Below are positions 4,987 through 25,895 of a stretch of DNA of 32,533 nt, one piece after another. The notes under the pieces were generated by a model. That model ran no database searches, had not been told where the DNA came from, and saw only the letters and a list, made by a program, of their open reading frames with translations. Source of the DNA: an uncultured Bacteroidota bacterium (GTDB lineage Bacteria > Bacteroidota > Bacteroidia > Chitinophagales > Chitinophagaceae); assembly GCA_903924075.1 (NCBI GenBank), contig CAIYAG010000188.1, positions 1 through 32,533 on the forward strand, in the 5' to 3' direction. The stretch's first letter is position 1, and every line of letters begins with the position of its first letter. Made by a program: the position numbers and the translations under genes.

Positions 4987-7353
4987 ATGAAAATCTATTT
5001 CGTAGCCATTTTTAGTGTATTGCTTTTCTCGCAGTGTAAAAACCCTGCACAAGAAAAAGCAACAACAGAATCTGAAGTTGGAAGTGTTCTTCCTTTTGCC
5101 GAACCGCCTTCTGCAAGTATCGCTGGTGAATCGCTTGCGGAAAGTAAGCATGTAAGAAGAGCGCAATCAGATCATTTGCCAAAAGATGCGCCGAATATCC
5201 TGATCATTTTAATGGATGATGTTGGATTTGGTACCCCATCTACTTTTGGTGGTGAGGTTAATACGCCAACCCTAACAAGAGTTTATAATGAGGGTATTGC
5301 TTATAATGAATTTCATACTACTTCTATCTGTTCTCCAACCAGAGCTGCATTGTTAACCGGCCGAAATCATACACGTATTGGTAACGGAACCATTGCAGAA
5401 CGTGCAGTTGATTGGGATGGCTATACTGGTATCATACCTAAAGAAGCTGCTACTGTTGCTGAAGTTTTGAAAGATTATGGTTACAATACTTCAGCATTTG
5501 GTAAATGGCATAATACTCCTGCTAATCAAACTACTTCTCAAGGACCCTTCGACTATTGGCCTAACGCATATGGTTTCCAACATTTCTACGGATTTCTGGG
5601 AGGAGAAACCTCTCAGTGGGAACCGCATTTAGTTGAAAATTATAGTCAGGTTGAATTACCCAAAAATGAAAAATATCATTTAACTACTGATCTTGCAGAC
5701 CATGCAATTGATTGGATGAGCGAGCATAAAGCTTACGCGGCTGATAAACCTTTCTTATTATATTTTGCACCTGGCGCTGGTCACGGTCCTCATCAGATCT
5801 ATAAAGAATGGGCTGATAAATACAAAGGTAAATTCAATGATGGTTGGGACAAATACCGTGAAAGAGTATTCAAACGCCAGAAAGATTTGGGCTGGATTCC
5901 AGCAAATGCACAATTAACTCCAAGAGATAAAACCATGACTGCCTGGGATAGTATTCCACAGTCTCAAAGAGCTTTCCAAGCTAGATTGATGGAAGTGTTT
6001 GCAGGATTTGTAGAACATGCAGATTCTGAAATAGGAAGAGTAATTGATGCGGTTGAAAAAAATGGACAGAAAGACAATACATTGATCTTCTTTGTTTGGG
6101 GAGATAATGGTTCTAGTGCAGAAGGACAAAATGGGTCGATCAGTGAATTACTTGCACAAAATGGGATCTCAAATACCATCGATCAGCAAATTGCTGCATT
6201 GAATAAAATAGGTGGCCTTGATGCATTGGGCGGGCATGTTACAGAAAATATGTATCACTCTTCTTGGGCTTGGGCTGGTAACACACCATTCAGATATACA
6301 AAATTGGTTGCGTCGCATTTTGGTGGAACTCGTAATCCTTTGGTAGTATCTTGGCCAGGTCATATTAAAGCAGACAAAACCCCTCGTTCACAATTTCACC
6401 ATGTAAATGATATTGTTCCTACTATTTATGATATCCTAGGAATTAAAGTTCCAAAAGTGGTGAATGGTTTTGATCAAATGCCAATGGATGGAATTAGTAT
6501 GAAATATACTTTCGATAATGCAAAAGCTCCAGCTGCTGCTAAAACACAGTTCTTCGATAATAATGGAAGTAGGGGTGTATATAATGATGGTTGGTATGCT
6601 TGTACTTTTGGTCCATTGTATCCATGGATCCCAGCTCAAAAGGGTTTAGACAAATGGGATTCTAAAAAAGACGTATGGGAATTGTATAATTTAAATGAAG
6701 ACTATACACAGTTCAACGATCTAGCTGCTAAAGAGCCAGAGCGTTTGAAAAAAATGCAAGCGCTTTATTTAGAACAAGCAAAAGACAATAAAGATTTTCC
6801 AATTGGTGCAGGTATCTGGTTACGCTTGCATCCTGAAGATGCTATTGCATCTCCTTATAAATCATGGGTGTTCAATCAATCCACCTATGGCATGCCTGAA
6901 TTCAGTGCTCCTGGATTAGGTAAAAAAAGTAACAAAGTGGAAATTGATCTGGAAGTTGGCGCAAATGCATCAGGTGTTGTTTACGCACTGGGCGGATCTG
7001 GCGGTGGACTAACCTGCTTCATGGATAATGGCAAATTAACTTATGAATACAATATGATGTTAATTGAAAATTACTCTGTGGAGACAAAAGAAAAATTAGC
7101 ACCAGGTAAGCACCATATTATCATTACCACCACCATTGCGAAACCTTTTGCTCCTGCAGTTGTGAAAATCAATATTGACGGAAAAGATGTAGCTAACTGT
7201 GATGTGAAACGCACAGTGCCGGCAGCTTTCAGCGCAAACGAATCATTTGATGTGGGTAGGGATTTGGGAGCTCCAGTATCATTGCGATATGCAAAAAGAG
7301 CACCTTTCAAATTCACTGGTACCATTAGTAAAGTAAAAGTTGATCTATTATAA
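4987..7353 (+). CDS. Arylsulfatase (formylglycine-dependent S1 type, about 790 aa with C-terminal beta-sandwich), probable lipoprotein
   Basis: NILIILMDDVGFGTPS; CSPTRAALLTGR signature (Cys at 5329-5331); GKWH; N-terminal signal with Cys (LLFSQC). Confidence 0.95.
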   Translation: MKIYFVAIFSVLLFSQCKNPAQEKATTESEVGSVLPFAEPPSASIAGESLAESKHVRRAQSDHLPKDAPNILIILMDDVGFGTPSTFGGEVNTPTLTRVYNEGIAYNEFHTTSICSPTRAALLTGRNHTRIGNGTIAERAVDWDGYTGIIPKEAATVAEVLKDYGYNTSAFGKWHNTPANQTTSQGPFDYWPNAYGFQHFYGFLGGETSQWEPHLVENYSQVELPKNEKYHLTTDLADHAIDWMSEHKAYAADKPFLLYFAPGAGHGPHQIYKEWADKYKGKFNDGWDKYRERVFKRQKDLGWIPANAQLTPRDKTMTAWDSIPQSQRAFQARLMEVFAGFVEHADSEIGRVIDAVEKNGQKDNTLIFFVWGDNGSSAEGQNGSISELLAQNGISNTIDQQIAALNKIGGLDALGGHVTENMYHSSWAWAGNTPFRYTKLVASHFGGTRNPLVVSWPGHIKADKTPRSQFHHVNDIVPTIYDILGIKVPKVVNGFDQMPMDGISMKYTFDNAKAPAAAKTQFFDNNGSRGVYNDGWYACTFGPLYPWIPAQKGLDKWDSKKDVWELYNLNEDYTQFNDLAAKEPERLKKMQALYLEQAKDNKDFPIGAGIWLRLHPEDAIASPYKSWVFNQSTYGMPEFSAPGLGKKSNKVEIDLEVGANASGVVYALGGSGGGLTCFMDNGKLTYEYNMMLIENYSVETKEKLAPGKHHIIITTTIAKPFAPAVVKINIDGKDVANCDVKRTVPAAFSANESFDVGRDLGAPVSLRYAKRAPFKFTGTISKVKVDLL

Positions 7354-7392
7354 ATTTTGAATTAAAAACTTTAAAAAAATAAAAATTTCGTT

Positions 7393-7767
7393 ATGAAACT
7401 ATTTTCAAAAATCTTATTTCTTGCAATTTTCACTTTGTCTTTGCAGGCTGCATCAGCACAGATCATGAACAAAAAATCTATCATGTCTGATCTCGGAAAC
7501 ACTGAAGGGGTTAAGCTTGACTCTAAACAACAAAAAGAGTATGAAAAAAGCAATAATGACCTAGCTGAAAGCTTATTGAAAGTAGATAAGAGTCCGAAAT
7601 CAAAGAACGATCGCGACAAAGAAATTGATGGCCTTTTTGATAAAAGGGATAACGATATAGATAACATATTTGGAAAGGATTCAAAATATGAAGAATCAAG
7701 AAAAAGTATGAAAAAAACTTCCAATAAAATGCGTCGTAAAATGAAGTTGGCAAAGTTTGCTTTGTAA
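7393..7767 (+). CDS. Small secreted, highly charged hypothetical protein (124 aa)
   Basis: Clear signal peptide (MKLFSKILFLAIFTLSLQAASAQ), Lys/Asp/Glu-rich mature part, collinear in operon. Confidence 0.7.
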   Translation: MKLFSKILFLAIFTLSLQAASAQIMNKKSIMSDLGNTEGVKLDSKQQKEYEKSNNDLAESLLKVDKSPKSKNDRDKEIDGLFDKRDNDIDNIFGKDSKYEESRKSMKKTSNKMRRKMKLAKFAL

Positions 7768-7818
7768 TTCCATTTCTATTTAAAGCAATCGATTATCAAT
7801 CTATTTAAAAAAATAAGT

Positions 7819-8841
7819 ATGTCATTTAATAACATTAAAAAAGGACTAACATTTTGTCTTTTTATTCTAATTGCAAATTTTGTAAATGCACAAAAAGATA
7901 CCCTTGTACTTAAAAATAAAGATGTCATTATTGGAGAAGTAAAAGGGATGGATAGAAGTGTGATTACTATTGGAACAGACTATAGCAAAGACGACTTTAA
8001 GGTAAAGTGGGAAGGGATTAGTACAATTAGTACGAATTCATCTTATATCATTACTTTGAAGAACGGGAACAGGCTTCATGGCACCGTAAAAACTTCTGAT
8101 TCAAGTGATGTTAGCATTAAAACAGTTGACGGTAAATCAAAAATAGTTAAGTATGAAACCATCGTTTTTCTAAAGCCCATCAAAACAGGATTTATTGATC
8201 GTTTACATGCAGCAGCTGATTTCGGGTTTAGTTTAACTAAGGCTCAAAACTTAAAACAAATTACTTTAAGGAGTACTGTTGGATATCTTGCAGAAAATTG
8301 GTCGGCAGATGTTTCTTATAATACCCTTTTCTCTAATCAAGATAAAACCGATAAGATCAAAAGAACTGACGGAGGACTTACATTCAATTATCTGTTACCA
8401 AAAGATTGGTATATCCCAGCATCTGTAACGTTTCTTTCTAACTCAGAACAACAACTAGATCTTCGAATGCTTGAGAAATTAGGGGTAGGTAATTACCTAG
8501 TACACTCTAATCGCAGTTATTGGGGAGTTGCAGGTGGTTTAACTTATAACAGTGAAACTTATTACAGTACTCCTGCCAGAAAAAGCTGGGAAGCATATAT
8601 TGGTACGGAGCTGAACATGTACAATATTGGTGACTTGAACCTGTTAACCAGATTTGCAGCTTATCCAAGTTTAACCGAATCAGGACGTTGGAGATACGAC
8701 TTCAACTTTGATGCGAAATACGATTTGCCATTGAATTTTTATATCAAACTTGGGGTTACTTATAACTATGATAATCGACCTGTGGCTGGTGCATCAAATA
8801 CAGACTATGTCATGCAAACAGGTATTGGCTGGAAATTATAA
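7819..8841 (+). CDS. DUF481 family outer-membrane beta-barrel protein
   Basis: Signal peptide; KDVIIGEVKGMDRSVITI...LKNGNRLHGTV repeat-type N-term; barrel with terminal YVMQTGIGWKL. Confidence 0.8.
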   Translation: MSFNNIKKGLTFCLFILIANFVNAQKDTLVLKNKDVIIGEVKGMDRSVITIGTDYSKDDFKVKWEGISTISTNSSYIITLKNGNRLHGTVKTSDSSDVSIKTVDGKSKIVKYETIVFLKPIKTGFIDRLHAAADFGFSLTKAQNLKQITLRSTVGYLAENWSADVSYNTLFSNQDKTDKIKRTDGGLTFNYLLPKDWYIPASVTFLSNSEQQLDLRMLEKLGVGNYLVHSNRSYWGVAGGLTYNSETYYSTPARKSWEAYIGTELNMYNIGDLNLLTRFAAYPSLTESGRWRYDFNFDAKYDLPLNFYIKLGVTYNYDNRPVAGASNTDYVMQTGIGWKL

Positions 8842-8866
8842 ATCGATTTATTTTAAATAACCATAC

Positions 8867-11212
8867 ATGAAAAAAGTATTATTTGGTTTTGGTTTCTTTA
8901 TTTCTGCAGCTGTTTCAGCTCAGCAAATACTGCCATTTCCCCCAACACCATCTGCATCAAAAGCAGGCCTTACAATGGAAACATCAACTTATCAAAAAAG
9001 AGTTGATGCAAAGCATTTGCCTGAAGGGTCACCGAATATTTTGATCATCTTGATGGATGATCTTGGTCCGGGTACCCCATCAACTTATGGTGGTGAAATT
9101 CATACACCAACACTGGATCGTGTTTCTAAAATGGGAATTTCCTATAATCGTTTTCATTCAACAGCCATGTGCTCTCCAACAAGAGCATCATTACTAACTG
9201 GACGGAATCACACATTTGTTGGCAACGGACAGATCTCTGCAATTGCAAATGATTTTGATGGCTTTAGTGGCATCATTCCAAAATCATCTGCAACTATTGC
9301 AGAAGTATTGAAAGATTATGGATACAATACTGGTGCCTGGGGTAAATGGCATAACACACCAGAAGAACAGATCACAAATAAAGGTCCATTTGATTATTGG
9401 CCAACAGGATATGGATTTGAATATTTTTACGGATTTCTTGCAGGCGAAGCATCACAATATGAGCCAACCATGACGCGCAATACCACTCAAGTAACAGAAG
9501 AAAAACCAAAGGGTTATCATGTTACGGAAGACATTGCTCAAGATGCGATCAAATGGTTACGCGAACAGAAAGCATACGCACCAGATAAACCATTTTTTAT
9601 GTATTGGGCACCAGGTGCAGCACATGGTCCGCACCAGGTAATGAAAGAATGGGCAGATAAATACAAAGGAAAATTTGATGATGGTTGGGACGAATATCGT
9701 AAACGAACTTTTGCACGTGCAAAAGAAAAAGGTTGGATCCCTCAGGATGCACAACTTACGCCAAGACCTGCTTCAATGACAGCATGGGATTCAATTCCTG
9801 ATGCTGAAAAACCTTTCCAACGCAGATTGATGGAAGTGTTTGCTGGATTTGCAGAACACGCCGATTATAATGCCGGAAAAGTAATTGATGAAATTGAAAA
9901 AGAAGGAAAGTTAGACAATACACTGATATTTTATATCTGGGGTGATAACGGTTCTTCTTCAGAAGGATTGAATGGAACCATCAGTGAGCAATTAGCACAA
10001 AACGGAATCCCTACAAAAATTTCTCAACACATTGATGCATTGAAAGAATTGGGCGGATTGGATGCACTGGGTGGACCAAAGACCGACAATATGTACAATG
10101 CTGGTTGGGCTTGGGCAGGAAGTACCCCTTATCAGGGAACCAAATTGATGGGTGCTTACTTTGGTGGTATCCGTCAACCAATGGCTATCTCTTGGCCTAA
10201 AGGAATTAAAGCAGATCCAACTGCTCGGCCACAGTTTCACCACGTAATTGATATCGTTCCTACAGTATATGATCTATTAAAAATCACAGCGCCACATATC
10301 GTAAATGGGTTTGAACAAGATCCAATTGATGGAACAAGTATGGTGTATAGTTTTACTGATGCAAAAGCAAAGGGAACAAGACAAACACAGTTCTTCGATA
10401 TTATGGCAAGCCGTGGTATTTATCACGATGGTTGGTTTGCAAGTGCTCGTGGCCCGCGTGAACCATGGGTAGGTGGTATGCCAAAAGGAATCAAAGAATG
10501 GTCTCCACTTACAGACAAATGGGAACTCTACAATATTGATAAAGATTGGAGCCAGGCGAATGATTTAGCTGCTTCTGAACCTAAGAAATTAGAGGAAATG
10601 AAATCCCTCTTTATCATGGAGTCTACCAAATATAAAAATTTACCAATCGGTGGTGGTATGTGGTCTACAGCCATGTTCCATCCAGAAGATGCACCAGCTT
10701 CTTCACTTACAGAATGGACTTTCGATGCACCCATCGTTGGTATGCCAGAATCTGCTGCACCTAAACTAGGTAAGAACAGTAGTTTGGTTACAATGGAATT
10801 AGAAGTGCCTGCAAAAGCAAATGGGGTATTATATGCATTGGCAGGGTTCTCGGGTGGTGTTACTTGCTTTGTAAAAGATGGCTTCCTGAATTATGAATTC
10901 AATTTGTTTGAAGTACAAAGAACCAAAGTAAAATCTAAAACAAAACTGCCAGTTGGTAAAGCAAAAATAGAAGTTGAATCAAAATTGGTTGATCGTATTG
11001 GCGGAGCAATGGATATCACATTGCGTGTAAATGGAGAAGTAGTTGGCACTGGTAAAGTTCCTGCTGCCATGTCGCTTCACTTTACATCTAATGCAACTTT
11101 TGATATTGGTATTGATACTGATTCTCCAGTTGCACTTGATTACTATGATCAGGCACCATTTAAATTCAATGGAAAAATTGGTAAGACCACAATCGCCTAT
11201 TTAAAAAAATAA
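8867..11212 (+). CDS. Arylsulfatase (formylglycine-dependent, paralog of 4987-7353)
   Basis: Signal peptide; NILIILMDDLGPGTPSTYGGE; CSPTRASLLTGR (Cys at 9170-9172); same C-terminal domain ending APFKFNGKIGKTTI. Confidence 0.95.
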   Translation: MKKVLFGFGFFISAAVSAQQILPFPPTPSASKAGLTMETSTYQKRVDAKHLPEGSPNILIILMDDLGPGTPSTYGGEIHTPTLDRVSKMGISYNRFHSTAMCSPTRASLLTGRNHTFVGNGQISAIANDFDGFSGIIPKSSATIAEVLKDYGYNTGAWGKWHNTPEEQITNKGPFDYWPTGYGFEYFYGFLAGEASQYEPTMTRNTTQVTEEKPKGYHVTEDIAQDAIKWLREQKAYAPDKPFFMYWAPGAAHGPHQVMKEWADKYKGKFDDGWDEYRKRTFARAKEKGWIPQDAQLTPRPASMTAWDSIPDAEKPFQRRLMEVFAGFAEHADYNAGKVIDEIEKEGKLDNTLIFYIWGDNGSSSEGLNGTISEQLAQNGIPTKISQHIDALKELGGLDALGGPKTDNMYNAGWAWAGSTPYQGTKLMGAYFGGIRQPMAISWPKGIKADPTARPQFHHVIDIVPTVYDLLKITAPHIVNGFEQDPIDGTSMVYSFTDAKAKGTRQTQFFDIMASRGIYHDGWFASARGPREPWVGGMPKGIKEWSPLTDKWELYNIDKDWSQANDLAASEPKKLEEMKSLFIMESTKYKNLPIGGGMWSTAMFHPEDAPASSLTEWTFDAPIVGMPESAAPKLGKNSSLVTMELEVPAKANGVLYALAGFSGGVTCFVKDGFLNYEFNLFEVQRTKVKSKTKLPVGKAKIEVESKLVDRIGGAMDITLRVNGEVVGTGKVPAAMSLHFTSNATFDIGIDTDSPVALDYYDQAPFKFNGKIGKTTIAYLKK

Positions 11213-11215
11213 TTG

Positions 11216-12043
11216 ATGAATTGTTTGAGAGCAAGTTTAGTTTTGGTATTGTTAGGTTGCCTAGCCTTGCCTGCATTGGCCCAAGAAAAAGCGGCTGATG
11301 CAGGTTTGGGCGAAGCAGCATCTAATGCTACCAATCCAATGGCTTTTGTAACCAAATTACAGATCCAGCCCAACTTTGCTTGGAAAGATGCTAGTGGTAG
11401 ACAGATTAATTTAACAACAAGAATCATTCAACCTACAGCTTCGATTCTTTTACCTTTTATTAAAAGCAATGACCCTTCTAAAGTGTATACGCTATATAGA
11501 TTGGAATTGCCCTTTATTAGTCAAACATTACCAGCAACAACTGCATTAAATGCAACGGGTATGAGTGATGTAATTGTACTTGACCTTGTTGCTTTTAAAC
11601 AAAGTTGGGGATTATTAGGTGCTGGACCAGGATTGGTAATTCCCTCGGTAACTCCAGCTGCTTTAAGTGGAGGTAAATGGTGTACTGGACTAACAGCTGT
11701 AGCGCTAAATACTAAAACAAAGGGTACACAGTTTGGTGCATTAGTACAACAGTTTTATTCATTTGCAGGAAGTGATTCTCGAGCAAAAAGAAACTTCATG
11801 TTGTTTCAACCCATTTATAATAAAGTACTAGGTAATGGATATTTTATGGGAGTAAGTCCCATCATCACTTTTGATTGGGAGAATAACACTTCTACAATTC
11901 CCTTGAATGTTTCTTTTGGAAAAGCATTTGCCAAAAATTTGAGTGCATTTGTTGCCCCTCAGTATATAGTAAGTGGACCAACTAAAGGAGACTTCATTCT
12001 TCAGTTTCAAATCAATGCCATGTTTCCTACTTCAAAAAAATAA
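11216..12043 (+). CDS. Outer-membrane beta-barrel, transporter-like (neuromedin U-annotated type)
   Basis: Signal peptide ending ALAQ; barrel-like alternation; ORF track gives a TTG start 1 codon earlier, ATG at 11216 preferred. Confidence 0.6.
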
Positions 12044-12080
12044 TAAATCAATCTTTTACAAAAACAAAAAAATCAAAAAA

Positions 12081-12758
12081 ATGAAAAAGTATTTAGCGGA
12101 ATTAATCGGTACGTTTTGGTTAGTATTCGGTGGTTGCGGTAGCGCCTTATTAGCAGCAGCTTTTCCTAATGTGGGGATTGGTTTAGCAGGTGTATCACTT
12201 GCATTTGGTTTAACAGTGGTTACCATTGCTTATTCATTTGGACATATCTCTGGAGCGCATTTAAATCCTGCTGTAACAGTAGGGGCATGGGTTGCAGGAA
12301 GAATTCCTACTTCTGATGTTCTTCCATATATCGTTTCTCAAATTATAGGAGGTATCATTGCTGCAGGTGCATTGTATGTAATTGTAACTGGCAATGGTTC
12401 AGCAATCGGAACTTTCGCAGCTAATGGTTATGGAGAACATTCTCCAGGAAATTACAGCATGGTTGCTGCAATTGTTATTGAATTTATCATGACTTTCATG
12501 TTCCTTCTTATTATACTTGGCTCTACTGATGAAGCTGCTCCAAAAGGTTTTGCAGGTTTAGCAATTGGACTTGCACTTACCTTAATTCATTTGGTAAGTA
12601 TTCCAGTAACAAACACTTCCGTGAACCCTGCTAGAAGTATTAGTCAGGCTTTATTTGTAGGAGACTGGGCATTATCACAATTATGGTTGTTCATCCTTGT
12701 TCCAATTTCAGGTGCTGCATTGGCAGGGTTGGTTTATAAATATTTCAAAACCAAATAA
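12081..12758 (+). CDS. aqpZ: Aquaporin Z-type water channel (MIP family)
   Basis: Two NPA motifs ([21 protein letters not shown]) and AqpZ-like [17 protein letters not shown] selectivity region; start trimmed to ATG 12081. Confidence 0.95.
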
Positions 12759-12768
12759 TTCAATTGTC

Positions 12769-14295
12769 ATGTTTAAAAGAAGCTTATTTCTTGTAATTGT
12801 ACTTTTTTCTGTCAGTTTTTCTTTTGCACAAAAAAAGCCCAATATCATTGTGATCATGGCCGATGATATTGGTATGTCAAATCTTTCTTGTTATGGAGGA
12901 GATATTATGGGTGTGCCAACTCCAAATATCGATCGACTTGCAAAAGAAGGGAAAAAAATGACTGCATTTTATGGTCAACCAAGCTGTACTGCGGGTAGAG
13001 CTGCGTTTATTACGGGGCAGTTACCAGTAAGAACAGGACTTACAACAGTTGGAATTGCAGGTACTGATGTGGGATTGCAAGCAGAAGATCCAACATTAGC
13101 AGAAGTATTAAAAACCCAAGGTTATAACACTGCTCAGTTTGGCAAAAACCATTTAGGCGATTTAGAGAAATTCATGCCTCATAGACATGGATTCGATGAA
13201 TTTTTTGGGAACTTATATCATTTAAATGCAAATGAAGATCCTGAAGATAAAGACAGACCAAACACAGCAGAATTCAAGAAAAAATTCGATCCTAGGGGAG
13301 TAGTTTCTGGTACAGCTAATGGCCCAACAGTAGATGAAGGCCCGCTTACTGTAGAAAGAATGAAAACTTTTGATGAAGAGATCTTAGCAAAAACAACCGA
13401 CTTTATTAAGAGAAAATCAAAAGAAGACAAACCGTTTTTTGTTTGGTACAATCCTTCAAGGTTGCATGTATTTCAACACTTGAAAGATAAAGACAAAGGT
13501 CAATCTCGTGCTTCACATAATGGGGAAGATGTATTTGGAGATGCTTTGGCTGTTCATGATAGAGAAGTTGGAGAATTATTGAAACTATTGGATGATTTAA
13601 AATTAACAGAAAATACGATTGTTATTTATACAACGGATAATGGCCCTTATCAATATATGTGGCCAGAAGGTGGTACCAGTCCTTTTAAAGGAGATAAAGG
13701 AACAACCTGGGAAGGTGGTGTTCGTGTACCATGTTTGGTTCGTTGGCCAGGGAAAGTTGAAGCGGGAAGCCAAAGTGCTGATATCATGTCATTAGAAGAT
13801 TGGTTTACTACACTTGCGTCTATTGCAGGTGATCCAACGATCGTAGAAAAATTAAAAAAAGGGGCTTCTTATAATGGAAAGTCGTTCAAAGTATTATTAG
13901 AAGGAATTGATCAAACTGATTTTATAACAGGTAAGAGCCCATCAAAAAGAGATTTTTATTTCTATTATGATGAAGCAAATTTGACCGCAGTTCGATACAA
14001 ACAATTCAAATTGAATTTCGCTTCTAAAAGAAATGCAAAGTGGGATGGATTTTTGCAACCTTATGGTAGACCATTACTTGTGAACTTATTATTAGATCCT
14101 TATGAAAGGCAAGTGGATAGCGATATTCCCCGTCAAATGTCAGAACATAAAGGTTGGGTTTATGCGCCAATGTTAGGGCTGTTACAAAAACACCTAGCTA
14201 GCTTTAAAGAATTCCCTCCTCGCCAAACTCCATTATCAGGTGATTTCACAAAAATGATCGAGGGGATGATGAGGCAAATGAGTGCTAAAGAATAG
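12769..14295 (+). CDS. Arylsulfatase with CxAxR signature (SCTAGRAAFITGQ)
   Basis: NIIVIMADDIGMSNLSCYGGD; Cys at 12985-12987; GKNHLGD; signal peptide ending FSFAQ; start trimmed to ATG 12769. Confidence 0.93.
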   Translation: MFKRSLFLVIVLFSVSFSFAQKKPNIIVIMADDIGMSNLSCYGGDIMGVPTPNIDRLAKEGKKMTAFYGQPSCTAGRAAFITGQLPVRTGLTTVGIAGTDVGLQAEDPTLAEVLKTQGYNTAQFGKNHLGDLEKFMPHRHGFDEFFGNLYHLNANEDPEDKDRPNTAEFKKKFDPRGVVSGTANGPTVDEGPLTVERMKTFDEEILAKTTDFIKRKSKEDKPFFVWYNPSRLHVFQHLKDKDKGQSRASHNGEDVFGDALAVHDREVGELLKLLDDLKLTENTIVIYTTDNGPYQYMWPEGGTSPFKGDKGTTWEGGVRVPCLVRWPGKVEAGSQSADIMSLEDWFTTLASIAGDPTIVEKLKKGASYNGKSFKVLLEGIDQTDFITGKSPSKRDFYFYYDEANLTAVRYKQFKLNFASKRNAKWDGFLQPYGRPLLVNLLLDPYERQVDSDIPRQMSEHKGWVYAPMLGLLQKHLASFKEFPPRQTPLSGDFTKMIEGMMRQMSAKE

Positions 14296-21682: not shown

Positions 21683-21705
21683 AACAGATGACTTTTCATA
21701 AATAC

Positions 21706-21751
21706 TTACAGAGGAATGTGATTTCCTGATATAAATCATATTCTTCTGTAA
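21706..21751 (+). promoter_or_regulatory. 19-bp inverted repeat (two G-U pairs as RNA), 8-nt loop, upstream of SQR-like gene
   Basis: TTACAGAGGAATGTGATTT / AAATCATATTCTTCTGTAA with loop CCTGATAT; no downstream T-tract. Confidence 0.6.
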
Positions 21752-21787
21752 CTAGTATCACAATGCCGATTAATTGTTAAAATGACC

Positions 21788-21810
21788 TTTGTTCTTCCAA
21801 AAAGAACAAA
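21788..21810 (+). promoter_or_regulatory. Perfect 9-bp inverted repeat ending 1 nt before the SQR-like ATG
   Basis: TTTGTTCTT-CCAAA-AAGAACAAA followed by aATG at 21812. Confidence 0.55.
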
Positions 21811-21811
21811 A

Positions 21812-23044
21812 ATGAAAAGTTTAGTCATTTTAGGTGCAGGAACTGCAGGAACAATGATGGCGAACCATCTAAATAAAAAGCTGAATAGAAAAGAATGGGA
21901 TATTACCATAATAGATGAACGAAAAGAGCATCACTATCAGCCAGGATATCTGTTTCTTCCTTTCGATATTTACAAGCCAACAGATATTATCAAAAATATC
22001 AAAGATTTTATCCCCTCAGATGTTGAGTTGATCCAAGAGCGCATAGAGAAGATCAATGCAAAGGAAAACAGTATTCTTCTGGATGCGGGAGAAATTATCA
22101 AGTATGATCTACTCATTATTGCAACAGGTGCAAAAATCGCGCCTGAAGAAATTGAGGGTATGAGCGGCTCGGAATGGCAAAAATCTGTTTTCGATTTTTA
22201 TACTTTTGAGGGAGCACTTGCTTTGCGTAATAAATTGCGTGAATGGGAGGGTGGAAACCTTGTTGTGCATATCTGTGAAATGCCTATTAAATGCCCGGTG
22301 GCACCACTAGAGTTTGCATTTTTAGCAGATTCATTTTTTGAGCATAAAAAAATGCGGGAGAAGGTTAAAATCACCTATGTAACGCCACTTAGTGGGGCAT
22401 TTACAAAACCAAAATGTACGGAAGCTTTAGAGTACTTGTTAGAAGATAAAGGTATCATACTGGAAAGCGATTTTGCAATTGCAGAAGTTAATAATGAAGA
22501 GAAAACAATTGTTGATTATGGAGGCAAGTCAATTCCTTTTGATTTATTGGTTACAGTGCCAACAAATAAAGGTGACGAATTGATGGAAAGATCTGGTTTG
22601 GGCGACGAGCTTAATTATGTACCAACTGAGAAAGCAACGCTTCAATCAAAAGCATTTGAAAATATCTTTGTAATTGGTGATGCTACTAATGTGCCTGCAT
22701 CTAAAGCAGGTTCAGTGGCACATTTTGAGGCAGAAATTTTAACGGAGAACATCCTACATTATATTAAACAGGAACCATTGGCAGCTAGTTTTGACGGTCA
22801 TGCCAATTGTTTCATTGAAACAGGCCATCAGAAAGCCTTGCTTATCGATTTCAATTATACACACGAACCAGTGTCTGGATTATTCCCATTCCCTGGAATT
22901 GGCCCATTACAATTGCTCAAAGAAAGCGTGTTTAATCATTGGGGTAAATTGGCATTCCGCTGGATCTATTGGAATATGTTATTAAAAGGTATCCCAATTC
23001 CTTTTGTAGGTTCTCATATGAAAACCGCAGGCAAAAATTTTTAA
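21812..23044 (+). CDS. FAD/NAD(P)-binding oxidoreductase, sulfide:quinone oxidoreductase-like
   Basis: N-term VILGAGTAGTMMANHL; ICEMPIKCPVAPLEF cysteine region; IFVIGDATNVPASKAGSVAHFEA; SQR-type C-term. Start trimmed to ATG 21812. Confidence 0.85.
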   Translation: MKSLVILGAGTAGTMMANHLNKKLNRKEWDITIIDERKEHHYQPGYLFLPFDIYKPTDIIKNIKDFIPSDVELIQERIEKINAKENSILLDAGEIIKYDLLIIATGAKIAPEEIEGMSGSEWQKSVFDFYTFEGALALRNKLREWEGGNLVVHICEMPIKCPVAPLEFAFLADSFFEHKKMREKVKITYVTPLSGAFTKPKCTEALEYLLEDKGIILESDFAIAEVNNEEKTIVDYGGKSIPFDLLVTVPTNKGDELMERSGLGDELNYVPTEKATLQSKAFENIFVIGDATNVPASKAGSVAHFEAEILTENILHYIKQEPLAASFDGHANCFIETGHQKALLIDFNYTHEPVSGLFPFPGIGPLQLLKESVFNHWGKLAFRWIYWNMLLKGIPIPFVGSHMKTAGKNF

Positions 23045-23063
23045 CCAACAATAAAACCATTTT

Positions 23064-23372
23064 ATGGACAAGTTAATCGCAGGTAAAACCATACAAGTAA
23101 ACGAAGAAGGATTCATGACCAATTTTAGTGAATGGAATAAGGAAATCGGAGAGGCCCTAGCTGGTGAATCACAAATTGTATTAACTCCAAAACATTGGGA
23201 GCTGATCAATTATATTCAAACTGAAGTTAAAAATGAATCTCCACTAAGTATCCGCAAAATTGGAAAAAGTGGGGTAGTAGATATCAAAGAATTCTATGCA
23301 CTATTTCCAAATGCACCATTGAAAACTGCCACAAAAATTGCTGGTGTACCTAAACCCGCAAGCTGTATTTAA
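23064..23372 (+). CDS. TusE/DsrC-family sulfur relay protein with only the C-terminal penultimate Cys
   Basis: C-terminal arm KTATKIAGVPKPASCI; DEEGF-like N-term (VNEEGFMTNFSEWNKEIGEALA). Confidence 0.92.
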   Translation: MDKLIAGKTIQVNEEGFMTNFSEWNKEIGEALAGESQIVLTPKHWELINYIQTEVKNESPLSIRKIGKSGVVDIKEFYALFPNAPLKTATKIAGVPKPASCI

Positions 23373-23391
23373 CAACAATAAAATTTTAATC

Positions 23392-23874
23392 ATGAGTGAA
23401 TATAATGGCGAGATCAGAAAAATGATGATCATCCTTTCTAAAGCCTCCATCGAAAATGTTTATGCAGCTTTTGTTTTGGCAAATGGCGCAAGAATGGAAG
23501 GTATTGAAGCAGAAATGTTCTTTACTTTCTTCGGACTTGAAGCAGTTCACAACAAAAAGCTAGATCATTTGCATGTTGCTACAGTAGGTAATCCTGCTAT
23601 GCATATGCCAACGATGTTAGGCGGTTTGCCTGGTATGGAAGCTTTGGCAACTAGTATGATGAAAAAAGAAATGGAAAAACTGGATATGCCTGAAGTGCGA
23701 GAATTCCTAGAAATATTAAAAGCATCCGGAGTTAAGCTCTGGGCCTGTAAACTAGCCATGGAAATGTTCCATTACGAAAAAACAGACATGTTCCCTGATT
23801 TAGATGGTGTATTAACAGTGGGCGATTTTTATAATCAATCAAATGGTATTGGCACACATATGCTATTCATATAG
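23392..23874 (+). CDS. DsrE2-like DsrE/DsrF/DsrH-family protein
   Basis: KMMIILSKASIENVYAAFVLANGARMEGIEAEMFFTFFGLEAV; GVKLWACKLAMEMFHYEKTDM conserved Cys; start trimmed to ATG 23392. Confidence 0.88.
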   Translation: MSEYNGEIRKMMIILSKASIENVYAAFVLANGARMEGIEAEMFFTFFGLEAVHNKKLDHLHVATVGNPAMHMPTMLGGLPGMEALATSMMKKEMEKLDMPEVREFLEILKASGVKLWACKLAMEMFHYEKTDMFPDLDGVLTVGDFYNQSNGIGTHMLFI

Positions 23875-23923: not shown

Positions 23924-23957
23924 AAAGCCTTTCAATTTTATTGGGAGGCTTTATTTT
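23924..23957 (+). terminator. Rho-independent-like terminator after the sulfur module
   Basis: AAAGCCTTTCAA-TTTTA-TTGGGAGGCTTT (12-bp stem, two G-U) followed by ATTTTT. Confidence 0.65.
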
Positions 23958-24163
23958 TACAGCATTATTGGAATAAAAGGAAGTGAAATCACAATAAACC
24001 TGAATTAAAGCATTTTTTAATATACTTCAACAGACTATAATCTCTATTTTGCCGTTATCTTATTATATCTTGACTATTCTATGCATCGAAACCTGCAAGT
24101 ATGGTCAGGTGAAATATTTATATAATATATAAAATTGGAATCTTAGTATACTAAAACTCATTT

Positions 24164-25000
24164 ATGGAGATCAACAACCCCTATGTTTTCGGGAATGTAT
24201 CCTTGTTAATTACACATTATAATCGGAGCAAATCATTACATCGCTTGCTAGATGCCATGCAAAAGCTACATGTAACATTTGGTGAGATTGTTATTTCTGA
24301 TGATGGCAGTTCTTATGCACACCTGCAAAACTTATTGGAATACCAGAAAATATTTAATTTCAGATTGATCACAGCACCTGTAAATAAGGGTCTTCCAAAT
24401 AATATTAATAAAGGTCAGGATGCCGTTTTAAAACCCTATACGCTTTATGTACAAGAAGATTTTGTGCCAAGTGCTTCATTCCCTTTAAAGTTTAAGCATT
24501 CTTTAGAGATCATGGAAGAAAGGCCAGATGTGGATATAGCTAGGTATTGGGCTTATTGGAAATATCCGTATCTAAAAACGATCCGCAACGGTTTTTCAGA
24601 TATGACATTCAGCATTTTTAAACTGGGTTATAAAAAGTTTTATGTGTATAGCGATGCTAGCCATTTGAGAAGAAGCAATTTTCCTCAAAAATTTGGTAAG
24701 TTTTTAGAAAACCTTCCAAGTGATAGAGCAGAATATTTGATGATGATGTCTTTTATACGGAAAAACGGTAAGGCGATCTATAACGACAATTATAACGATA
24801 TGTTCGATCACCTAAATAGTGAAGACGAACCAAGTACAGTTGAAAGAGATTTTATTTCATATAGCGATAGCAATCCTGTTATTACTATCATTCGGAACTT
24901 ATATAGAAATGTCAAGTTCAACCTTGATTATCTGTTTCTATTCTCATGGCGATTGGAAAGATTCATTAAAGCCGTGAAGAGTATTGGCAAAAAACCATAG
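24164..25000 (+). CDS. Glycosyltransferase family 2
   Basis: SLLITHYNRSKSLHRLLDAM...IVISDDGSS...YVQEDFVP. Confidence 0.85.
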   Translation: MEINNPYVFGNVSLLITHYNRSKSLHRLLDAMQKLHVTFGEIVISDDGSSYAHLQNLLEYQKIFNFRLITAPVNKGLPNNINKGQDAVLKPYTLYVQEDFVPSASFPLKFKHSLEIMEERPDVDIARYWAYWKYPYLKTIRNGFSDMTFSIFKLGYKKFYVYSDASHLRRSNFPQKFGKFLENLPSDRAEYLMMMSFIRKNGKAIYNDNYNDMFDHLNSEDEPSTVERDFISYSDSNPVITIIRNLYRNVKFNLDYLFLFSWRLERFIKAVKSIGKKP

Positions 25001-25088
25001 CAAGCTTTGTAAATTTGATATTGAATACGAGGGAGGTGGGAACGGAATCAATGAATGACCATTAAGTTTAATAGATAATTTATTTTTT

Positions 25089-25895
25089 ATGTCGGCTTCT
25101 AATTACCATTTTGATGGAGTAAGTTTAGTGATTACACACTATAACCGAAGCAGCTCCTTGGAATGTTTATTAAATACTTTTAAAAAATTGCAGTGCAGTT
25201 TTGAAGAAGTGATTGTTTCAGACGACGGAAGTAGGCCAGAACACCTCTCAAAAGTTCAGGAGCTACAGAAACAGTTTTTATTTACACTATTAACCACTCC
25301 AGTTAATAAGGGGTTGGGACATAATAATAATGTATCCCAAGACGCAGTTAAAACGGAGTATACCCTATATGTGCAGGAAGACTTTGTTCCAAGGCCCATT
25401 TTCCCAGCACTTTTTGAGAAGTCAATGAAGATCATGAGGTCGCAACCAGATATTGATATCATTAGATATTACTCTTATTTCAGTTATCCTTATCTCAAGC
25501 CTTTTGATGAAGACTTTTCATTATTAGATTTCCATCCTGAATTCTGGTATGCAAATCATCGAAAATTCTATTTCTATAGCGATCATCCGCATGTTAGGCG
25601 CAGTAATTTCTTCAGCAAATTTGGTCGCTATCTCGAAGGCATCAAAGGAGATACTACTGAATATCGAATGAGTCTTTCTTTTGTACAGAAAAAGGCAAAA
25701 GGATTATTTTATACCAAGTTTAACGAAGTATTCGACCAACAAAACACAGACGCTGAGCCAAGCACTATGCAAAATGAGCGTCCAGAATGGAAATTGAGCA
25801 AGAACTTAATTGTTAGATTCTTAAGGTTCCTTTACTTGGTTTACAAGTACACAAAATGGAGCCTGGAATATGTGTTTGTTCCCAAAAGACCTTAA
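25089..25895 (+). CDS. Glycosyltransferase family 2, paralog of the preceding gene
   Basis: SLVITHYNRSSSLECLLNTF...VIVSDDGSR...YVQEDFVP. Confidence 0.85.
   Translation: MSASNYHFDGVSLVITHYNRSSSLECLLNTFKKLQCSFEEVIVSDDGSRPEHLSKVQELQKQFLFTLLTTPVNKGLGHNNNVSQDAVKTEYTLYVQEDFVPRPIFPALFEKSMKIMRSQPDIDIIRYYSYFSYPYLKPFDEDFSLLDFHPEFWYANHRKFYFYSDHPHVRRSNFFSKFGRYLEGIKGDTTEYRMSLSFVQKKAKGLFYTKFNEVFDQQNTDAEPSTMQNERPEWKLSKNLIVRFLRFLYLVYKYTKWSLEYVFVPKRP

Follow-up and report, generated by a model that had tools for sequence, protein, structure and literature searches.

The window, i.e., the whole stretch of 32,533 nucleotides analysed, carries on its forward strand a three-gene operon (21812-23874) whose ORFs encode a sulfide quinone reductase (SQR) of the type III subfamily in its Cys form (gene 1, 21812..23044, 410 aa), a single-Cys protein of the TusE/DsrC-family (gene 2, 23064..23372, 102 aa), and a DsrE2-like sulfurtransferase (gene 3, 23392..23874, 160 aa). 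The ORF coordinates agree with the 19-bp gaps reported for the three genes in the first-pass annotation, both the SQR-TusE gap (23045..23063, forward strand) and the TusE-DsrE2 gap (23373..23391, forward strand) being of this length, and their sequences share an 11-mer, CAACAATAAAA (at 23046-23056 and 23373-23383, respectively), which in the TusE-DsrE2 gap is possibly an A-rich ribosome-binding context. The annotated coordinates and SQR start codon were also correct; homologues favour the start at 21812 and lend no support to an in-frame upstream ATG at 21782. The operon has its own terminator, as had been claimed, in the form of an intrinsic-terminator-like hairpin and T tail (23924..23959, forward strand; hairpin at 23924-23952 with 13 pairs, a loop of 3, and the tail ATTTTTA). 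An upstream regulatory region of its own had likewise been proposed; here the operon is preceded by a 129-bp non-coding stretch (21683..21811, forward strand; the ORF list has no entry of 60 aa contained entirely in it) that we presume to be the promoter region, but in a promoter scan sigma-70-like sites were no commoner in it than in shuffled sequence. An Rfam search identified no RNA elements in the window. Elsewhere the window contains three sulfatase genes clustered with outer-membrane proteins (4987-14295), and two similar tandem family-2 glycosyltransferases (24164-25895) beyond which lie a flippase and a polysaccharide deacetylase on the opposite strand.

The three encoded proteins

Profile searches matched the gene 1 product to Pyr_redox_2 and to NF049943, the NCBI model for "type III sulfide quinone reductase, selenoprotein subtype", against which it scored 636.1 bits over its full length (cut-off 525 bits; the next-best Bacteroidota group scored ≤365 bits), and gave no match to an NDH-2 model. 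Its nearest PDB relative by sequence was human SQOR (158 bits, versus 48 bits for NDH-2), and its predicted structure (pLDDT 89.8) had a TM-score of 0.86 to human SQOR versus ~0.72 to NDH-2. The predicted redox cysteines, C161 (MPIKCPVAP) and C333 (DGHANC), align with the human SQOR cysteines in KCAGAP and TSC and were invariant in an alignment of 23 homologues. Based on the HMM, the PDB score, the fold and the two cysteines we reject an NDH-2 identity; the first-pass annotation had regarded a kinship with NADH dehydrogenases as fatal to its reading, and both score and fold place the flavoprotein with the SQRs. F334 adjoins C333, as the quinone-site Phe357 adjoins Cys356 in the SQR of A. ferrooxidans, the C-terminal YWN.LL.G segment is retained, and no signal peptide is apparent, the Rossmann fold beginning at residue 2.

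The selenocysteine members of NF049943 have the motif HxxU according to a review (PMC13188914), and as this fits H330-A-N-C333 of the window protein we infer that selenocysteine replaces the equivalent of the catalytic C333 in some relatives. The window codon itself specifies Cys, and the NF049943 model admits Cys forms. Members above the cut-off in the Bacteroidota genomes had no internal stop, and 250 Bacillota genomes yielded no selenocysteine form, such forms having been reported from Desulfosediminicola (PMC12013277). Our literature search found no report of SQR activity measured for a protein of precisely this subfamily. The type III homologue CT0876 of Chlorobaculum tepidum is reportedly devoid of SQR activity.

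The gene 2 product matched PF04358 (89.8 bits) and TIGR03342 (TusE/DsrC/DsvC; 76.7 bits, cut-off 53.5), but against the E. coli TusE equivalog NF008562 it reached 58.4 bits, well short of the 191-bit cut-off. Its only cysteine is the penultimate C101, and in the alignment T90 occupies the site of the second DsrC cysteine. Among 110 aligned family members from the retrieved loci the penultimate Cys was present in 109, and a second-position Cys in only one, a green sulfur bacterial DsrC. In organisms without DsrAB the second DsrC cysteine is replaced by Ala, Ser or Thr (PMC3397948), a rule with which T90 and the absence of dsrA from the host both agree; with T90, and no dsrA in the host, the protein is not a DsrC of a dissimilatory sulfite reductase system.

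The DsrE2-like gene 3 product scored 108.5 bits against PF13686 (DrsE_2; cut-off 25), and fell short of the DsrE2 equivalog NF047629 (97.9 bits, cut-off 210), a model to which green sulfur bacterial DsrE2 scored 219 bits. It has one invariant cysteine, C119, which was conserved in 103 of 103 sequences, and the predicted structure (pLDDT 89.6) had the DsrE-like 2qs7 as its best PDB match. We also noted that in five genomes (G230, G238, G348, G352 and G395) a DsrE2 domain forms part of an ORF of ~820-840 aa, which presumably encodes a large fused sulfur-transfer oxidoreductase. At locus L038 (G350:C1:116465-116927) the triad DsrE2 is broken across two frames, which may reflect a pseudogene or an error in sequencing.

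Conservation of the triad and its neighbourhoods

We counted SQR proteins over the NF049943 cut-off in 396 Bacteroidota genomes and found them in 96, 57 of which belonged to one family (f18) that we identified as the green sulfur bacteria because the FMO protein was present in 6/6 members tested. In all 39 non-green-sulfur Bacteroidota genomes with such an SQR, TusE and DsrE2 genes lay directly downstream on the same strand. The match-to-match distance between SQR and TusE was 36-125 bp in 30 of these, where nothing intervenes, and 732-836 bp in the other nine, and in the six long-gap genomes examined a gene of the DUF1641 family (~230 aa) fills the gap; the DUF1641-bearing triads include L032, L033 and L046. 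Only three further genomes outside the green sulfur bacteria, each from family f33, had a TusE without an NF049943 SQR, alongside one sub-cut-off match; of those examined, one encodes a DsrC with two Cys next to dsr-like genes and another a divergent protein with CLCE at its end. The association is thus 39/39 versus 3/~291 genomes (Fisher p ~1e-47, uncorrected for kinship), and these conservation counts and statistics led us to reject a chance clustering of the three genes. In the host family (f1), four genomes with SQR have all three genes and ten without SQR also lack TusE, which points to gain or loss of the triad as a unit. The genes flanking the triad differ among genomes.

A scan of named genomes yielded 80 loci, with TusE in 79 and all three genes in 76 of the 77 with a long enough contig, so that the conservation of the triad, which the first-pass annotation had left to neighbourhood statistics, is borne out at both scales. 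The named loci include ones from Chitinophagaceae, Saprospiraceae, Flavobacteriaceae, Vulcanibacillus and Tepidibacillus; the triad thus occurs in Bacillota too, and also in MAGs labelled Verrucomicrobia and Cloacimonadota, labels that are possibly wrong in places. The three proteins have correlated pairwise distances (r 0.77-0.80, versus ≤0.21 when permuted), for which shared ancestry alone would suffice. The exception, locus L073 (6001-8750), has an SQR 87% identical to that of the window with no TusE and DsrE2 beside it; a CcoG-like gene lies directly 3' of this SQR, and as the order is TusE-DsrE2-CcoG in a relative of the window from the same genus, the absence looks like a deletion. Given L073, SQR may function without TusE and DsrE2.

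Several triads have candidate regulators directly upstream. In Bacillota these are CsoR-family genes with two Cys (L172:2753-3022 and L173:3270-3548, assigned by Pfam, and L174:2901-3179, assigned by sequence likeness), and the Bacillota triad L148 has a gene similar to a CsoR-family repressor upstream. MerR-type regulators directly precede SQR in L032 (6417-6857, Cys-rich), L033 (7730-8152) and L046 (6245-6691); they may serve to sense sulfide or persulfide.

Related clusters place the triad among other sulfur systems. In the green sulfur bacterium G177 (L170) an NF049943 SQR heads a cluster rhodanese-DsrE2-TusA-cobyrinic acid diamide synthase-like-DsrC-DsrA-DsrB (rhodanese, DsrE2, TusA and DsrC identified by model, DsrA and DsrB by likeness to the dsrA-positive L045). 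Both this cluster and the host operon combine, on one strand, a DsrE2 and a DsrC-family gene with an SQR that exceeds the NF049943 cut-off, the SQRs being 44-45% identical; the green sulfur cluster differs in having rhodanese, TusA, a two-Cys DsrC and DsrAB, whereas the host operon comprises only the triad, with a single-Cys TusE. More distantly, in two Bacillota loci (L175 and L176) a type III SQR under the cut-off (~355 bits) follows DsrE-TusA, with DUF1641 next in L176. These clusters resemble the host triad in that a DsrE protein accompanies an SQR from the broader type III group, and differ in having TusA in place of TusE and an SQR below the subfamily cut-off. The occurrence of DUF1641 both inside Bacteroidota triads and beside the distant SQR in L176 suggests an SQR-linked role for this family.

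Sulfur-transfer partners in triad genomes and a candidate relay

No TusA over the cut-off was found in the host draft genome, and among the 39 Bacteroidota triad genomes TusA was present in one and absent from 38. DsrA over the cut-off was found in none of the 39, the host included, the green sulfur controls being positive. The statement of the first-pass annotation that tusA and dsrAB are not in view therefore extends from the window to the whole draft genome; its similar statement about rhodanese is true of the window but not of the genome, where there were 13 matches. Outside Bacteroidota, TusA was present in four of seven triad genomes tested (some Bacillota, Cloacimonadota and Verrucomicrobia). 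The host genome has no DsrE protein besides that of the operon. We thus reject, for the host, both a remnant of a Dsr pathway, as dsrA is absent, and an E. coli-type Tus relay, as TusA and any other DsrE are absent.

The host does possess a second set of sulfide genes. On contig 142 (L163:1-2846) a type-I-like SQR, which scores 144 bits against that of Aquifex, adjoins a metallo-beta-lactamase/rhodanese fusion resembling persulfide dioxygenase/rhodanese, a pair that is likely to form a separate sulfide-to-sulfite route, and a CoA-disulfide-reductase/rhodanese fusion is encoded elsewhere. Because of this second SQR and its persulfide-dioxygenase-like/rhodanese neighbour, bulk sulfide detoxification may be covered outside the triad.

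Three known systems share parts with the operon. Rhodanese-TusA-DsrE2 sulfur transfer feeds Dsr or sHdr systems in A. vinosum and other organisms; like it, the triad pairs a DsrE2-family carrier with a DsrC-family carrier, but the host has neither TusA nor DsrAB and has SQR as the sulfur entry instead, and for want of TusA we do not assign the triad to this relay. The E. coli Tus relay (IscS-TusA-TusBCD-TusE-MnmA) likewise has a single-Cys TusE, which a DsrE-fold protein supplies with sulfur, whereas the host lacks TusA and TusBCD-like DsrE proteins, and an SQR heads its operon. Mitochondrial SQOR, which works with persulfide dioxygenase and thiosulfate sulfurtransferase, is the nearest solved relative of the host SQR and both cysteines are kept. 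The sulfur acceptor of human SQOR is a small molecule; unlike the mitochondrial case, the host SQR gene has those of two protein carriers next to it.

We consider it somewhat probable that the operon encodes a cytoplasmic sulfur relay that needs neither TusA nor DsrAB, is powered by the oxidation of sulfide and runs from SQR to DsrE2 to TusE. SQR (FAD, C161/C333) would oxidise sulfide and reduce the membrane quinone, with the sulfane sulfur staying on an active-site cysteine; this sulfur would pass to Cys119 of DsrE2 and from there to the penultimate Cys101 of TusE, which would ferry it onward to its user. The sulfide oxidation chemistry is proposed by analogy with known SQR proteins, as is transfer from a DsrE-family protein to a TusE/DsrC protein; that SQR hands sulfur to DsrE2, and that DsrE2 precedes TusE, is our conjecture. 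Sulfur transfer from DsrEFH to the penultimate Cys111 of DsrC has been shown in vitro in A. vinosum, where neither DsrEFH nor DsrC takes sulfur from glutathione persulfide or thiosulfate (PMC3397948); as these carriers could not use glutathione persulfide, a protein donor is favoured.

Counting for the relay are the scarcity of TusA (1/39) and the lack of dsrA (0/39) in the triad genomes, and the related SQR at the head of the G177 cluster. Counting against it are the absence of an acceptor gene from the operon, the TusE and DsrE2 scores below the equivalog cut-offs, the reported inactivity of CT0876 and the L073 SQR that stands apart from TusE and DsrE2, and, against its being TusA-free, the presence of TusA in some Bacillota, Cloacimonadota and Verrucomicrobia triad genomes. 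The first-pass annotation had proposed a minimal sulfide or persulfide relay, to which the fold and score of the SQR, the conservation of the triad and the published DsrE-family precedent lend weight; the genome does hold further sulfide-oxidation genes, in the second SQR-like gene and its neighbour. As the triad travels together in Bacteroidota and in other phyla without TusA, it is probably a stand-alone route for sulfide sulfur. We put forward more tentatively, at somewhat below even chances, that SQR passes sulfur directly to DsrE2 in a self-contained TusA-free pathway that is present in several phyla and ends in an undescribed acceptor.

An unlikely alternative is that the triad feeds biosynthesis, SQR capturing sulfide sulfur that DsrE2 and TusE deliver to MnmA (tRNA 2-thiouridine) or another enzyme in replacement of IscS-TusA-TusBCD. 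E. coli TusE does deliver to MnmA (PMC3397948), and the host genome has an MnmA-family gene; however, the MnmA family is present in 14/14 control genomes and the triad in only 4/14 host-family genomes, so MnmA works without the triad, and the window TusE scores under the E. coli TusE equivalog cut-off. We give the same low weight to the flavoprotein being some other thiol, persulfide or polysulfide oxidoreductase in vivo, with the carriers shuttling sulfur for redox sensing or defence. The said inactivity of CT0876 would fit this, as would the regulators upstream of triads (two-Cys CsoR-family repressors in L172 and L173, the similar gene in L148, and MerR-type regulators in some Bacteroidota), which suggest a stress-induced operon, but the SQR keeps both catalytic cysteines, the Phe beside C333 and the YWN.LL.G segment, and its closest fold is human SQOR. 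Slightly less probable again is that SQR makes free polysulfide or low-molecular persulfide, buffered by DsrE2 and TusE for a dioxygenase or rhodanese elsewhere in the genome: the host has suitable genes in its second SQR-like gene with the metallo-beta-lactamase/rhodanese fusion and in its CoA-disulfide-reductase/rhodanese fusion, but rhodaneses are equally common in genomes with and without the triad, and the A. vinosum carriers refuse glutathione persulfide and thiosulfate (PMC3397948).

Implications of a possible SQR-loaded relay

In prokaryotic sulfur-transfer chains the DsrE and DsrC/TusE carriers are generally loaded via TusA or rhodanese. Our literature search, with most subscription papers outside its reach, found no paper combining SQR, DsrE2 and TusE; all three parts belong to known families, and what appears to be undescribed in the literature searched is their combination, free of TusA, into a stand-alone SQR-TusE-DsrE2 unit, and how widely this unit is spread. 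Its presence in 39 of 39 sampled non-green-sulfur Bacteroidota with the SQR, in genomes that lack DsrAB and nearly always TusA as well, suggests that an SQR can itself load a protein relay. SQR would then be a likely sulfur source for the single-Cys TusE proteins of bacteria that lack DsrAB, and the destination of the TusE sulfur is directly testable in cultured isolates, e.g., Lutibacter, Gramella, Aequorivita and Tepidibacillus.
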